Below are positions 4,868-21,054 of a stretch of DNA of 64,000 bases, in pieces. Position 1 is the first letter of the stretch, and the number at the start of each line of letters is the position of its first letter. The stretch is from Winogradskyella aurantia. GTDB lineage: Bacteria > Bacteroidota > Bacteroidia > Flavobacteriales > Flavobacteriaceae. The position numbers were made by a program, and so were the translations under genes. The stretch spans positions 1 to 64,000 of the forward strand of contig NZ_NGJN01000001.1 of the NCBI RefSeq assembly GCF_002266855.1, in the 5' to 3' direction. The notes beneath the pieces were generated by a model that worked only from the letters and a program-made list of their open reading frames with translations, had not been told where the DNA came from and searched no databases.

Positions 4868-4977
4868 ATGATAAAATTCTTTAGATTATCGAAACAAAAA
4901 TTTTGCAAAGCAAAATCAAAGGTCTGGTAGAGCTTGGGTTGAGATAGCCGCTTGCGGAAAAAATAGAAACCTGAAAT
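4868..4977 (+). promoter_or_regulatory. structured leader of DUF6090 gene, copy 1
   Basis: This closely matches 12050-12158 and ends at the DUF6090 start codon. It contains TTTTGCaaaGCAAAA and a GGTCT/AGAGC hairpin that is imperfect in this copy. The conserved string GAGATAGCCGC follows, with the CCGcttgCGG stem. It opens with ATGATAAAATTC, resembling the DUF6090 start itself. An extra A in the run at 4896-4900 shifts the short reading frame that is intact in the third copy, so the conserved part is more likely RNA structure than peptide. A separate hairpin TCCCGctttctCGGGA lies just upstream (about 4842-4859). Confidence 0.5.
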
Positions 4978-5685
4978 ATGATTAAGTTTTTTAGACGAAT
5001 TAGATATGACCTTATGAAAAAAAACAAATCTGGAAAGTATTTGAAATATGCTATTGGGGAAATTGTATTAGTTGTTATCGGAATTTTAATTGCACTTCAA
5101 ATCAACAATTGGAATGAACAACGAAAAAGTAATATAAAATCAACGGTATTTCTCAATAGCCTGAAAAATGACTTAAAAAATGACTTTTCACAAATGGACA
5201 GCATCTATAGATTCAGAATGCAAAGAGAAAAAATTTTTGAATTATTAAACCAAGAAATTGAATTCTATTCAGAGGGAAGCAAAAATCTTATAGATTCTTT
5301 ATATTCAGAAACACAAGGCAGAAACCCAACATTTTTTCCAACCGTTGGTGCCTATAATGGCGCCCTTAATTCTGGAACCTTTGAAGACTTAAATAATGAA
5401 GCATTAAAACAATCCATAAGAAGCTTATACGAACACTACTATAAACGATTATTTTATAATGGAGAAAAATTGGATGATAGAGTTGAGAAAATAAGTTGGG
5501 AGCACCTCACTTTTTTTAATAAAAGTAAATCAAAAATATTCGACCCAACAGTCATTCAATCGGGGCAACTTTTGGCTCAATCTGAATATTTAAGGACAAC
5601 CAATAATATATATATCGAATTATTAATCACGAATAAAAGTCAAATAAAACAAGTAATGAGCTTAATTGAAAAAGAGCTTAATTAA
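4978..5685 (+). CDS. DUF6090 family single-pass membrane protein (copy 1 of 3)
   Basis: 235 residues. The N-terminus, MIKFFRRIRYDLMKKNKSG, is basic. It is followed by one hydrophobic helix at about residues 25-42 (IGEIVLVVIGILIALQINNWNE) and a long charged, mostly helical domain without cysteines or recognisable catalytic motifs. This is the layout of the DUF6090 family, which is abundant in Bacteroidota and of unknown function. Three copies occur in this array, each with the same type of leader; the first 45 residues are strongly conserved between copies and the C-terminal domains diverge. The protein is probably anchored in the inner membrane with the C-terminal domain outside the cytoplasm (inference from the basic N-terminus). 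Confidence 0.85.
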   Translation: MIKFFRRIRYDLMKKNKSGKYLKYAIGEIVLVVIGILIALQINNWNEQRKSNIKSTVFLNSLKNDLKNDFSQMDSIYRFRMQREKIFELLNQEIEFYSEGSKNLIDSLYSETQGRNPTFFPTVGAYNGALNSGTFEDLNNEALKQSIRSLYEHYYKRLFYNGEKLDDRVEKISWEHLTFFNKSKSKIFDPTVIQSGQLLAQSEYLRTTNNIYIELLITNKSQIKQVMSLIEKELN

Positions 5686-5696
5686 AAATAACGAAA

Positions 5697-5827
5697 GAAA
5701 AACACAGTATATGAGCTATCGCTTATCCTCGCTTACTTGGAAACTCCTTCAGATTTTCTAAAGCCAGTTTTTATTTAGAGAGGTTCGTGCCACGACACGC
5801 CATAGCTCATATACATAACCGTTACCA
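5697..5827. repeat. attC-like palindromic boundary element
   Basis: The left arm, AACACAGTATATGAGCTATCGC, begins 16 bp after the DUF6090 stop. The right arm, GCCATAGCTCATATAC, is its near-perfect reverse complement (14 of 15 bases around GCTCATATAC). It is followed by ATAACC and the GTTACCA box at 5821-5827. The next gene starts only 7 bp later, the tightest boundary in the array. Confidence 0.6.
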
Positions 5828-5833
5828 CCAATT

Positions 5834-6646
5834 ATGAAAATGAGAATGTATAAATTATTAATTATCGCCATTTTATTTTTAGTCTCTTGTAAACCAAAAG
5901 AAGAAATAAAAAATGATTTCATCTCGTTTGATGGAACTAAAATTGCTTATTCTGACCATGGAAACGGAAAAACTGTTTTACTAATTCATGGTTTTATAGT
6001 CGATGGCAATTATAATTGGGGGAAATCGGAATTAAAAAAACAACTGATTAACCAAGGCTACAGAGTTATTGTACCAGATTTGCGAGGTAATGGAAATTCA
6101 GATAAACCTGTTGATGAAAATGCTTATAAAAATAATGCCGAGATAAAAGATTTAATGGCGCTGATTGACCATTTACAAACTGACGAATATATGGCTATAG
6201 GCTACTCAAGAGGCGCAATTGTTCTTGCAAACTTGGTTACCAAAGATAAGCGAATCACCAAAGCTGTATTTGGAGGAATGGGAATTGGATTTACGAATCC
6301 AAATTGGCACAGACGAATTGAATTTGGAAATGTCTTTTCTGGACGGACTGAACCAAATGAAATGACAAGAGGAGCTGTAGACTTTGCAAAAAATCTCGAT
6401 GTGAACTTTAAAATAATGGGTTATTTACAGGACTATCAACCTGAAACGACAGTTACTGAACTTAATAATATTGAGATAGAGACTTTGATAATTTGTGGAG
6501 ATGAGGATTTAGATAATGGAAATCCGAAAGAACTACAAGAACAATTACCGAATAGTAAATTGAGTCTCGTTAGTGGAGACCATATGAGTACACCTTTTTC
6601 AATGGCATTCGCCGAATCGATTATTGAATTTCTTAATGAAAAATAA
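5834..6646 (+). CDS. alpha/beta-fold hydrolase, lipoprotein
   Basis: A 270-residue predicted lipoprotein (lipobox Cys19) with a complete alpha/beta-hydrolase catalytic set. The oxyanion-hole HG lies near residues 52-53, followed by DLRGNGNS. The nucleophile elbow is G-Y-S125-R-G. The acid is in CGDED (Asp223 or Asp225) and the base is His250 in SGDH. The closest general group is the PF00561/PF12697 esterases and haloperoxidase-like hydrolases; the substrate cannot be told. It is a stand-alone cassette between two palindromes. The ATG at 5834 is used because the lipoprotein signal follows at once; a second ATG at 5840 is also possible. Confidence 0.85.
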   Translation: MKMRMYKLLIIAILFLVSCKPKEEIKNDFISFDGTKIAYSDHGNGKTVLLIHGFIVDGNYNWGKSELKKQLINQGYRVIVPDLRGNGNSDKPVDENAYKNNAEIKDLMALIDHLQTDEYMAIGYSRGAIVLANLVTKDKRITKAVFGGMGIGFTNPNWHRRIEFGNVFSGRTEPNEMTRGAVDFAKNLDVNFKIMGYLQDYQPETTVTELNNIEIETLIICGDEDLDNGNPKELQEQLPNSKLSLVSGDHMSTPFSMAFAESIIEFLNEK

Positions 6647-6650
6647 CAGT

Positions 6651-6842
6651 GGCTAACAACGGCTATAGTTCATGACGGCTGAAATTGCTTATGCCAATTC
6701 GCACTTTGTGCTCGTGCCCTAATCGGAATTTCGAGCCTTTTTGCTAAATTTACGGTTTGCTACCGCCAGTCGCTTCGCTCGTGTCGGCGGAATGATATTC
6801 GTCTACCATTCCTCAACGAAACCATAGCTAAAAGCGTTAGCA
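6651..6842. repeat. attC-like palindromic boundary element (clearest copy)
   Basis: The left arm GGCTAACAACGGCTATAG (6651-6668) starts 4 bp after the stop. The right arm CCATAGCTAAAAGC ends in GTTAGCA (6836-6842). GGCTAAC and GTTAGCA are complementary apart from the last base, and CTATAG pairs with CATAG, with unequal spacers between them as in attC sites. The inner part has further stems, for example around CGCACTTTGTGCTCG and CCGCCAGTCG with CGGCGG. The length, 192 bp, is at the long end for attC sites. Confidence 0.65.
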
Positions 6843-6860
6843 ATAATTTAAACCAACCAA

Positions 6861-8753: not shown

Positions 8754-9015
8754 ATGATATTATCGAGGCATGATTTATATAGTAAATTAAATGTCCGTTG
8801 GACATTTGGGCGAGATAGCCGCCTGCGGACTTAATAAATGCTTTAATTAGACCATGATTATGTTTTTTAGACACTATCCGAATGTAGTTTTAAATGACAA
8901 ACCCGAGGTCTTCAAGACCTTGAATGAGGATACAGGACCAAACGTCTAGAAACATTCCGATGGACTGTTTTAGTGATAGGGCGAGCTTGCCGCGTTGGCT
9001 ATTAAAACGAGAAAT
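8754..9015 (+). promoter_or_regulatory. structured leader of DUF6090 gene, copy 2 (two modules)
   Basis: The first module (8754-8840) matches 11950-12036. It has an ATTTA/TAAAT stem, the hairpin AAATGTCC-gtt-GGACATTT, the conserved GAGATAGCCGC and a CCGcctgCGG stem. The second module (8854-9015) is more diverged. It opens with ATGATTATGTTTTTTAGA, has the hairpin AGGTCTtcAAGACCT (8909-8923), and ends with GGGCGAGCTTGCCGC before the DUF6090 ATG. Stems are kept while their sequence changes between copies, which points to a structured RNA leader. Confidence 0.5.
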
Positions 9016-9759
9016 ATGATTAAATTCTTTCGAAAAATACGTTACGACCTTATGGAGAAAAATAAAACTGGAAAGTATTTTAAATATGCCATTGGCGAAA
9101 TTGTACTTGTAGTTATTGGAATTTTAATAGCCATTCAATTAAATGAATGGAGAAATGATTTAGTAAACAACAAACAAAAACAGAAAGTATTATTAGCCTT
9201 AAAGTCGGATTTTGAAGAGAATATTACAAGATTGGACACTGTGTTTAACCACCAGGAAAAGAGCTTTTTCAAATTTTTGAAATCAAAAGATCTTATCGAT
9301 TCTATAAATTATGTCACAGACAAATTGGTGTTAAAAGAAAACCTGAGGCATGGTGGATATGGATATAGTTTTAGTCCAATTAATGGCGCTTTGCGTTCGG
9401 CAATATCCTCAGGAGATATTCATTTAATTAATGATGAGCGCTTAACAAAATTATTATTTAGTTGGGAGGACTTGGTTCTTGATTCTTATGAAGAAGTTGA
9501 ACTTCTTAGAAGTTACGGTTCAGACCCTTATGTTCGATTAATACATAGCTATGCCCAAGCAAGAGAAATAGGTAGAAAATCACCCAATAAGAACAGAAGC
9601 AATCACCCTTCTAATTTCGTTGGAATATTTAAGGATCCGCTATTTGAAAATTATACCCAACAAATGATTTACTACTCATACCAATATATGGAAGAACTAA
9701 AGGTCATTAGAATAAATAATTTAGAAATTATAGAATTAATTGACAGAGAATTAAAATAG
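9016..9759 (+). CDS. DUF6090 family single-pass membrane protein (copy 2 of 3)
   Basis: 247 residues. The start at ATG 9016 is chosen because the other two copies begin with the same MIKFFR sequence; an in-frame TTG at 8995 would add only seven unlike residues. The basic N-terminus, single helix at about residues 25-42 and charged helical C-terminal domain are as in the 4,978 gene. The C-terminal domain differs in sequence and shares only scattered positions, such as NGAL...G near residues 120-130. A boundary palindrome begins a few bases after the stop. Function unknown. Confidence 0.85.
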   Translation: MIKFFRKIRYDLMEKNKTGKYFKYAIGEIVLVVIGILIAIQLNEWRNDLVNNKQKQKVLLALKSDFEENITRLDTVFNHQEKSFFKFLKSKDLIDSINYVTDKLVLKENLRHGGYGYSFSPINGALRSAISSGDIHLINDERLTKLLFSWEDLVLDSYEEVELLRSYGSDPYVRLIHSYAQAREIGRKSPNKNRSNHPSNFVGIFKDPLFENYTQQMIYYSYQYMEELKVIRINNLEIIELIDRELK

Positions 9760-11774: not shown

Positions 11775-11792
11775 AAACGAAAAACAACGAAC

Positions 11793-11925
11793 CGCTAACA
11801 ATGTATATAAAAAATAGGCTGACTATTGGTAAAATCAAGGCTTTGGGCTCGTATCAAAACTTGGTGCTTAACCGAATGTTTTGTTATTCGTTATCGCCTA
11901 CTTTTCATGTACAAGACCGTTGTAC
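11793..11925. repeat. attC-like palindromic boundary element
   Basis: The left arm is CGCTAACAATGTATATAAAA and continues with AATAGGC. The right arm is GCCTACTTTTCATGTACA, followed by AGACC and the GTTGTAC box at 11919-11925. GCCTA-TTTT-AT-TACA pairs with the left arm with only transitions mismatched. The element is 133 bp, a typical attC size. The rest of the 384-bp gap is the two-module DUF6090 leader. Confidence 0.6.
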
Positions 11926-11949
11926 TTCATTATAACCAACTACTAACCA

Positions 11950-12158
11950 ATGATATTATCGAGCCAAAATTTACGCAGTAAATCAAATGTCCTGTGGACA
12001 TTTGGGCGAGATAGCCGCTCGCGGACTTATTAAATGTTTAAATTAGATTATGATAAAATTCTTTAGATTATCGAAACAAAATTTTGCAAAGCAAAATCAA
12101 AGGTCTGGTAGACCTTTGGTTGAGATAGCCGCTTGCGGAAAAAATAGAAACCTGAAAT
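11950..12158 (+). promoter_or_regulatory. structured leader of DUF6090 gene, copy 3 (two modules)
   Basis: Module a (11950-12036) has the stem TTTACgcaGTAAA, the hairpin AAATGTCC-tgt-GGACATTT (11985-12003), the conserved GAGATAGCCGC and a CGCtcGCG stem. Module b (12050-12158) has TTTTGCaaaGCAAAA, the hairpin AAAGGTCT-ggt-AGACCTTT (12099-12117), the same GAGATAGCCGC and CCGcttgCGG. The two hairpins occupy the same place but differ by paired changes, which is what compensatory evolution would leave. Module b also carries an intact 38-codon ORF overlapping the DUF6090 start. Confidence 0.55.
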
Positions 12159-12166
12159 ATGATTAA
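12050..12166 (+). CDS. possible 38-residue leader peptide
   Basis: The frame starts MIKFFRLSKQNFAKQ, like the DUF6090 proteins, and ends in TATGATTAA, overlapping the DUF6090 ATG by 8 bases; such overlap is typical of translational coupling. The same ORF in the 4,868 leader is broken by one extra A, and the 8,854 copy reads differently after MIMFFR. It may be a translated leader controlling the DUF6090 gene, or just the trace of a duplicated 5' end. Confidence 0.3.
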   Translation: MIKFFRLSKQNFAKQNQRSGRPLVEIAACGKNRNLKYD

Positions 12167-12887
12167 GTTTTTTAGACGAATTAGATACGACCTTATGAAG
12201 AAAAATAAAACTGGAAAGTATTTGAAATATGCACTTGGAGAAATTGTTCTGGTAATGATTGGCATTTTATTAGCCCTGCAAATCAATAATTGGAATAATG
12301 ACAGAATAGAACGAAAACTTGAATCGAATATACTAAACGAAATTCTAGTCAATCTTAAAAAGGATGTCATAAATCTTAACTCGAAAATTAAGTTTAATCA
12401 AGAAAAATTTAAACTCAATAGAGACGTATTAATACATTTAGAACAAAAAACACCGTTAACTGACTCATTAAGATTCTCTTACAATAAATTAATTGGTAGA
12501 GGCACATTTGAACCTATAACTGTTGCTTATGAAAACTTAAAATCTAAAGGAATAGATATTATTAATAATGACTCACTTAGAATTGCCATTTCGGAATTGT
12601 ATGATTTTAAGTATTTCTACATAACCGAAGATTTAAGAGCAGATTATGAGCCTGTGAAAACTTTGCATATGAGTGAAGTATTTAAGAATGTTAGGACATC
12701 ATTTGGGCAGTCAAAGTCAGAGCCAGCAAACTTAAAAGAAGCACAAGATAATACTTATTTCCACGAGGCTCTTAAACAAGCTTTGGGCTATTATTTTTGG
12801 ATAAATACCAATTATGAAAGAGGAATAAAAGAAAATGAAGAGGTACAGAGAAAAATTGAAGCTGAATTAATGCAAAGAAATAAATAA
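12159..12887 (+). CDS. DUF6090 family single-pass membrane protein (copy 3 of 3)
   Basis: 242 residues. The N-terminal 45 residues nearly match the 4,978 gene (MIKFFRRIRYDLMKKNKTG, then helix at about 25-42 and QINNWN). The C-terminal domain is helical and charged and diverges from both other copies. It is the last gene of the cassette-like array, followed after 5 bp by a half palindrome and then by tRNA-Arg. Function unknown. Confidence 0.85.
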   Translation: MIKFFRRIRYDLMKKNKTGKYLKYALGEIVLVMIGILLALQINNWNNDRIERKLESNILNEILVNLKKDVINLNSKIKFNQEKFKLNRDVLIHLEQKTPLTDSLRFSYNKLIGRGTFEPITVAYENLKSKGIDIINNDSLRIAISELYDFKYFYITEDLRADYEPVKTLHMSEVFKNVRTSFGQSKSEPANLKEAQDNTYFHEALKQALGYYFWINTNYERGIKENEEVQRKIEAELMQRNK

Positions 12888-21008: not shown

Positions 21009-21054
21009 CGCCCTCATTAATAACCGAGGTCGAGAACCTCACTAATTAATTATT

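Follow-up and report, generated by a model that had tools for sequence, protein, structure and literature searches.

The DUF6090 genes of the window and their leaders

The window, the whole stretch of DNA that was analysed (bases 1–64000 of contig 1 of a 3.2-Mb genome), carries three plus-strand genes of Pfam family PF19578 (DUF6090), each with a leader that holds a short upstream ORF and a copy of a folded element. The genes and leader features are listed here, with R1 and R2 denoting the covariance models described in the next section.

4978..5685, plus strand: DUF6090 gene A (Pfam PF19578, E 1e-34)
9016..9759, plus strand: DUF6090 gene B (Pfam PF19578, E 1.9e-11)
12159..12887, plus strand: DUF6090 gene C (Pfam PF19578, E 8.2e-13)
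4868..4930, plus strand: short upstream ORF of leader A, 20 codons, frame-shifted, its end 50 nt ahead of the real start
4885..4958, plus strand: element copy A, with hairpin 2 mispaired and one extra base
8754..8834, plus strand: short upstream ORF of leader B1, 26 codons
8759..8829, plus strand: element copy B1, of the AAATGTCC/GGACATTT form
8854..9015, plus strand: variant leader B2, longer, element-like in its first half only (8873-8946)
8854-8949, plus strand: ORF of leader B2, its stop 67 nt ahead of the real start
11950..12033, plus strand: short upstream ORF of leader C1, 27 codons
11955..12025, plus strand: element copy C1, of the AAATGTCC/GGACATTT form
12050..12166, plus strand: short upstream ORF of leader C2, 38 codons, opening with a DUF6090-like 17-nt piece
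12067..12139, plus strand: element copy C2, the best match of the genome (R1 101.7 bits, R2 E 3.8e-23)
12140..12158, plus strand: A-rich spacer ahead of the gene C start, from the letters and the base composition before linked starts

DUF6090 is a family with conserved 5′ ends and variable bodies: identity among the three window genes is 79–85% over the first 130 nt and 54–57% over the remainder. The family is array-forming and encodes a membrane protein, with 46 matches to the Pfam profile in the source genome; its predicted model is confident and all-helical (mean pLDDT 88.6), and no PDB entry matched that model at E ≤ 0.001. Many DUF6090 genes of the source genome stand in same-strand tandem (contig 15 at ~152–173 kb, and also contigs 11 and 1; loci L048–L057), and the stops and starts of many of these tandem genes overlap. 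Several DUF6090 proteins (in L048, L051, L052 and L208) have in-frame inserts reading KPASQTGR, KPAFQTGR or KPAWPVGR at a single place before a membrane helix, which are possibly another palindromic repeat inserted in frame. Elsewhere in the window, an Rfam S16-Flavobacteria ribosomal protein leader occupies 21016–21050 (58.9 bits), and the intergenic spacers at 5707–5814, 6646–6845 and 11776–11931 have long imperfect inverted ends with AAC...GTT-like borders, the 26-nt arms of the first (5707–5732 and 5789–5814) being 81% complementary. We take these three spacers to resemble integron attC sites.

The original prediction placed a module before each of the three DUF6090 starts, doubled at two loci, and modules were found at 4868–4977, 8754–9015 and 11950–12158, with the doubling at the second and third. 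The B2 match to the element is weak (E 0.0039 with model R2 and E 0.018 in the other model search), and the motif GAGATAGCCGC, described as invariant, is exact at 4941, 8812, 12008 and 12122 but has two mismatches at 8983, in B2. The bare motif, with two mismatches allowed, has 13 matches compared with 6.4 expected, which is mildly unusual. A hairpin with both sides changed together is present as AAAGGTCT/AGACCTTT at 12098–12118 (with flanks; the second module of the third locus) and as AAATGTCC/GGACATTT in B1 and C1, but the intact hairpin assumed for the first locus is broken there, AGGTCT lying opposite AGAGCT, and an extra A shifts the upstream frame. The outer part of the module also had to be redrawn: TTATC pairs with GATAG and AAC with GTT, GAGATAG being the 3′ side of an outer stem, and GAGATAGCCGC therefore consists of the 3′ side of the outer stem and the 5′ side of hairpin 3. 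The modules are more than one recently duplicated sequence, as only A and C2 are near copies among the ten module pairs of the window; these two are identical at 107 of 110 columns, so that module A, a near copy of C2, is not independent evidence.

A three-way junction in a dispersed repeat family

Copies of the element were collected with covariance models. Model R1 was built from 13 leaders of six same-genus genomes, and alignment A1 used 13 of 17 loci. After merging of identical contexts the collection comprised 172 copies, which an automatic test (a DUF6090 start ≤600 nt downstream on the same strand) divided into 113 linked and 59 unlinked, although by reading the test misses about eight to ten truly linked copies among the 59. 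Alignment A3 contains 59 linked copies, 56 of the 70 that remained after thinning and 3 from the window, and the 14 omitted lacked hairpin 3 or were of odd length or odd fit. Alignment A4 contains 28 of the 42 thinned unlinked-called copies, 8 having been omitted for DUF6090-like flanks and 6 as cut or ill-fitting; among the 28, DUF6090-like flanks remain in L172 and L175, and an opposite-strand DUF6090 gene is 41 nt away from L205:6044. These 28 copies all come from outside the source genome, and in 26 no DUF6090-like start lies on the same strand; the model built from them, R2, recovers the four main copies of the window with E values of 3.8e-23 to 2.6e-12.

The element core spans ~73 nt and forms an outer stem with a GA/GA loop and two hairpins, followed by a CCGC-UU-GCGG hairpin. 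The parts are located in C2 as follows.

12068..12128, plus strand: three-way junction, from pair counts, the letters and a single-sequence fold
12068-12072/12124-12128 and 12075-12077/12119-12121, plus strand: outer stem, flanking the GA/GA loop
12081-12097, plus strand: hairpin 1
12098-12118, plus strand: hairpin 2
12129..12138, plus strand: hairpin 3, CCGC-TT-GCGG, with a both-sided change in 4 of 4 pairs, by one sequence each

The fold is maintained through paired changes, both in the leaders and in copies outside them. Across the 59 linked copies 93.2% of 1638 cells pair, and both-sided changes are found in 17 of the 28 pairs and in all four helices. They amount to 91 cells, compared with 30.9 in shuffles; none of 500 shuffles was as high on any of five measures, confirming in a larger alignment the covariation that had been predicted. 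When the partners are slid by 1–3 columns, pairing in the same copies falls to 31–43%, and every slid control has fewer paired changes than the true alignment. The 28 other copies were counted over three helices, hairpin 3 being left out because it does not align, and have both-sided changes in 18 of 24 pairs and 88 cells (21.8 in shuffles, again with none of 500 as high); in both sets the paired-change cells are sequences, not events, and the sequences are related. The weakest helix is the outer stem, with 88.8% (linked) and 71.9% (other) of cells paired, both-sided changes in 4 of 8 and 5 of 8 pairs, respectively, and column 9/56 unpaired in 27 of the 59 linked copies; the counts for hairpins 1 and 2 are equally strong without it. 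Recent duplication as the sole cause of the similarity is rejected, because linked copies from many genera differ and do so with paired changes. As the same fold is kept in non-leader copies, it did not originate for coupling to the downstream gene. The claim of a conserved structured element is thus supported by covariation in a much larger alignment than the window offers, but had overlooked the three-way junction, the short ORF and the dispersed repeat family to which the copies belong.

Hairpins 1 and 2 have loops of variable sequence, and single-sequence folds of the window leaders disagree on whether the real start is occluded. In L165, L168, L124, L182 and L011, hairpin 2 has partly given way to other hairpins, of the CTCCCGATAGTTATCGGGA or GTCCTCATGAAAATGGGGA type, resembling the insertion of one repeat into another. 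Rfam 15 gave no match over the window elements, and six other loci had none either with E values up to 1 admitted; a known Rfam family is rejected, with no score near any family threshold.

In the source genome the element is closely tied to DUF6090. All 16 R1 matches at E < 0.05 lie just upstream of DUF6090 genes, within ~350 nt of the profile match, as do 14 of the 15 R2 places, the sole exception being a partial match on contig 17 (E 0.008). Linked copies in the collection lie 13–27 nt before the DUF6090 start in 99 of 113 cases, with peaks at 19 and 24–26, a location that suits the cis-acting element of the original prediction, although the putatively translated short ORF described below had been missed. 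Under strict filters, matches occur in at least 42 of 349 genomes of the family and at least 38 of 237 genera; model R3 under strict filters matched the source genome only, with none in 294 other genomes sampled from the class. A scan of a genome contig collection for a 19-base motif returned 30 stretches, 25 with a model match, all 25 from records named Flavobacteriaceae, genera thereof, or Bacteroidia; the five without a model match (L119, L126, L129, L131 and L135) were taken as chance. A link to viruses is rejected, the exact 19-base motif having no match in a viral contig collection.

Copies away from DUF6090 are mostly between ORFs, some in exact tandem, and 9 of the 59 unlinked-called copies are overlapped by an ORF of ≥90 codons from a crude ORF caller. 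R2 places number 2 to 26 per genome in 11 genomes (with ≤150 candidates scored in each), and two genomes of another genus have 23 and 26 places with 3 and 5 DUF6090 matches. These dispersed, unlinked copies place the leader in a dispersed, structured repeat family: the leader element is a member of a REP-like repeat family. In seven genomes unlinked copies adjoin a purF-like gene (L161, L162, L164, L183, L185, L191 and L209), some as exact tandem repeats of ~195–236 nt, and a superoxide-dismutase-like gene is the other neighbour in three genomes and slightly further off in two; one purF-like gene, from a partial ORF, and one superoxide-dismutase-like gene were named, both below the NCBIfam equivalog cut-offs. 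One 10-kb stretch (L205, 1574–9048) has five copies, each preceded by the same CCCCGTAT and opposite to the neighbouring genes.

The element shares with REP/REPIN sequences, as far as the available text of PMC3733652 describes them, a short, palindromic, dispersed and intergenic character with some tandem copies. It differs in being a ~73-nt three-way junction with a leader-bound set, and in reaching tens of copies at most in the 11 genomes scanned, whereas REP elements, in the part of PMC2817692 consulted, usually exceed 100 copies per genome. The REP-associated Y1 transposase (PF01797) had no match in the source genome and was present in one of six genomes searched, and reading the ends of the copies gave neither a GTAG nor a CGTC tag. 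A RAYT-type REP is rejected on these three grounds: no Y1 transposase in the source genome, low copy number and no GTAG/CGTC tag.

A short reading frame ahead of the real start

Ahead of most linked copies stands a DUF6090 gene beginning, either ATGATAAAATTCTTTAG or a variant of it, with surroundings that resemble those of stand-alone DUF6090 genes, while the real start downstream of the element often reads ATGATTAAG. Among 103 distinct linked copies whose real start is ≤60 nt away, a recognisable upstream start is present in 93 and absent in 10. The ORF that it opens usually runs through the element, and in 72 of the 93 it stops close to, or overlapping, the next gene's start, the arrangement expected of translational coupling: relative to the real start, the first stop lies between −25 and +8, compared with 0 and 2 for the other two frames. 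In leader C2, the TAA overlaps the real start (ATGATTAA), with the stop at +5. With any frame class admitted, the first stop lies at −12 to +8 in 60 of 93. The pattern persists after thinning at 0.9 (25 of 37 at −25 to +8) and at 0.85 (15 of 24), the other frames giving 0 and 1–2. The remaining 21 upstream ORFs stop elsewhere, leader A among them, and the B2 ORF is outside the 93. This plain frame contrast is weaker than it appears, because the other two frames hold stops in the conserved TTGAGATAG.

Tests that exchange upstream fragments between loci bear on the frame more directly, and in these the loci are related and the exchanges leave some relatedness in: 72 of 93 were observed, compared with a mean of 54.1, and none of 2000 exchanges was as high; at <80% identity the values are 18 of 25 and 10.7, again with none of 2000 as high. 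The plain frame count at this identity is 15 of 25, compared with 9.8 (P 0.016). In-frame stops are also fewer than under random placement of the same changes (9/49 vs 19.1, P 0.003; 8/38 vs 15.2, P 0.012; 5/21 vs 9.3, P 0.03). Of the thinned copies, 33 of 37 linked ones and 26 of 40 unlinked ones can be read through the element in one frame or more.

The lengths of the two parts are fitted to each other: start pieces of 17 nt occur with 73-nt elements in 44 loci and 16-nt pieces with 74-nt elements in 10, the mismatched combinations being rarer (17 + 74 in 8 loci, 16 + 73 in 3). The start position and the element are so matched that the ORF stop stays close to the real start. In L165 and L168, hairpin 2 has been swapped for quite different hairpins and the frame kept; copy L012, with two insertions, is out of frame by reading. 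In a subtype whose start piece is 5 nt long, 5 of 9 copies have CGA in place of the TGA within TTGAGATAG, and that frame is thereby open, but this variant is weak as frame evidence: its C is also the partner of a G in the outer stem, and pairing alone can account for it. Unpaired sites have a slight codon-position bias (0.155, 0.153 and 0.179 after thinning), and the peptides encoded by the two most frequent versions of hairpin 2 differ at three positions, the stem being kept; on these two grounds the peptide is rejected as the main conserved unit. Pairing and frame openness seem to be kept, more than the peptide. The frame, for its part, looks to have been kept by selection, as judged from tests in which relatedness partly remains.

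The arrangement of DUF6090 genes in the source genome suggests where such a frame belongs. A motif search gave 48 DUF6090 genes, 10 with a called leader and 38 without, variant leaders such as B2 counting as uncalled. Fifteen of the 38 leaderless genes begin at, or within ~10 nt of, another DUF6090 gene's stop, as do none of the 10 leader-bearing genes; since array genes overlap and leader genes do not, the leader ORF stands where an upstream array member would. Most stand-alone DUF6090 genes of this genome have no called leader. Start contexts differ as well: an A occupies position −3 in 79% of the 103 real starts, compared with 22% of the 93 upstream starts and 33% of 30 leaderless starts of the source genome. 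In F. johnsoniae, by the account available in PMC6847099, an A at this position promotes initiation, and initiation tends to fall with structure close to the start.

Interpretation of the leader

The leader is, on balance, probably a copy of a REP-like folded repeat of Flavobacteriaceae adopted as a translated, coupled leader of DUF6090 genes, a reading drawn from comparison of sequences. The leader would be transcribed together with the DUF6090 gene; ribosomes would initiate at the first ATG and unfold the junction, then terminate at the second ATG and reinitiate on it. DUF6090 output would then depend on translation of the short ORF, and when that translation fails the refolded junction may damp this output. 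A lone gene would in this way acquire from its leader the kind of stop/start overlap found between DUF6090 genes in tandem. In the accessible text of PMC5574718, the E. coli iraD leader has a short upstream ORF with stop/start overlap and translational coupling, and termination–reinitiation is described as a mode of coupling in what was available of PMC6728339. The DUF6090 leader resembles both, as a short ORF in a structured leader with its stop overlapping or abutting the gene start. Unlike them, it has an ORF that encloses one copy of a dispersed repeat and whose first letters are a piece of the start of the downstream gene itself, and it belongs to a system without Shine–Dalgarno signals, in which coupling is the presumed step; the consulted part of PMC6728339 indicates that Bacteroidetes seem to do without the Shine–Dalgarno motif in reinitiation too.

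A more far-reaching form of this reading is possible, though we hold it only tentatively: that a mobile structured repeat was domesticated as a plug-in translational coupler that moves with the conserved DUF6090 5′ ends, with fold and frame both selected. The old start would become that of a short leader ORF, and a second start would arrive in a better context; single genes of a shuffling, array-forming family would be expressed as if they followed an array member, and the frame under selection would be whichever each insertion dictated. Palindromic elements of Rickettsia likewise are repeats within a reading frame that remains open. They lie inside a full protein, in contrast to the flavobacterial element, which sits in a separate short upstream ORF.

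Among the alternatives, a passenger repeat fares best, although we consider it rather unlikely as an account of the leaders. Mobile or structural palindromic DNA, its fold kept for its own spread or as single-stranded DNA, would ride along with duplication and recombination of DUF6090 5′ ends and regulate nothing. Dispersed copies in other genera (the 23 and 26 places with 3 and 5 DUF6090 matches), exact tandem copies and the identical fold outside leaders are what such a repeat would leave, as is the near-identity of leaders A and C2 above gene bodies that are ~57% identical past the first 130 nt; because these leaders are near-identical and the bodies diverged, the leader moves between genes. 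In the source genome, however, nearly all copies share one strand and one location, ahead of a single gene family, the upstream start and the element are frame-matched, and no Y1 transposase matches there. The passenger repeat accounts for the unlinked copies better than a coupler does, and not for place and frame.

It is improbable that the junction acts as a non-coding cis-regulatory RNA, binding a protein or ligand to control access to the start, with the short ORF an accident of the element having inserted behind a start codon. A compact junction with a GA/GA loop, paired changes and a position near the start would suit such an RNA, but the loops of hairpins 1 and 2 are variable with no conserved pocket seen in them, there is no Rfam match, unlinked copies keep the fold, and the frame matching would go unexplained.

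Termination on the opposite strand is more doubtful still. Here the reversed hairpin 2 and its T-rich stretch, which resemble a weak terminator, would end transcripts of opposite neighbours, leaving the leaders as a by-product. The scan marks minus-strand sites at 12118–12098 and 8807–8789, and of the 56 unlinked-called copies with a right-hand neighbour ORF, 45 have it oppositely oriented; the stretch as a whole, however, holds 7 terminator-like sites compared with 4.4 expected by chance, the T-run is interrupted, the next gene of the leaders is on the same strand, and the outer stem and frame are left unexplained. An intrinsic terminator or attenuator on the coding strand is rejected, with no plus-strand site in the leaders and two minus-strand sites at hairpin 2. 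A small RNA processed from the leader is scarcely credible, as fairly sharp element ends in unlinked copies are set against the fixed spacing to the DUF6090 start, the lack of a forward-strand terminator-like site in the leaders and the lack of any visible conserved single-stranded seed.

The components of the adopted-leader reading, a repeat, a leader ORF and coupling, are of known kinds, and the combination is new as far as searched. DUF6090 was not named in the literature searched by full text, which was mostly without subscription papers, and no matching title was among the matches listed for flavobacterial palindromic repeats, for REP elements or for structured leaders. The element adds to Flavobacteriaceae a well-supported structured element that is absent from Rfam 15. 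It also supplies a natural example of a dispersed folded repeat that has apparently been fitted to a short reading frame at a gene start. If the coupling is true, bacteria without Shine–Dalgarno signals can make a leader out of a repeat, and the leader offers a way into DUF6090, a large family that forms arrays and has no named function.
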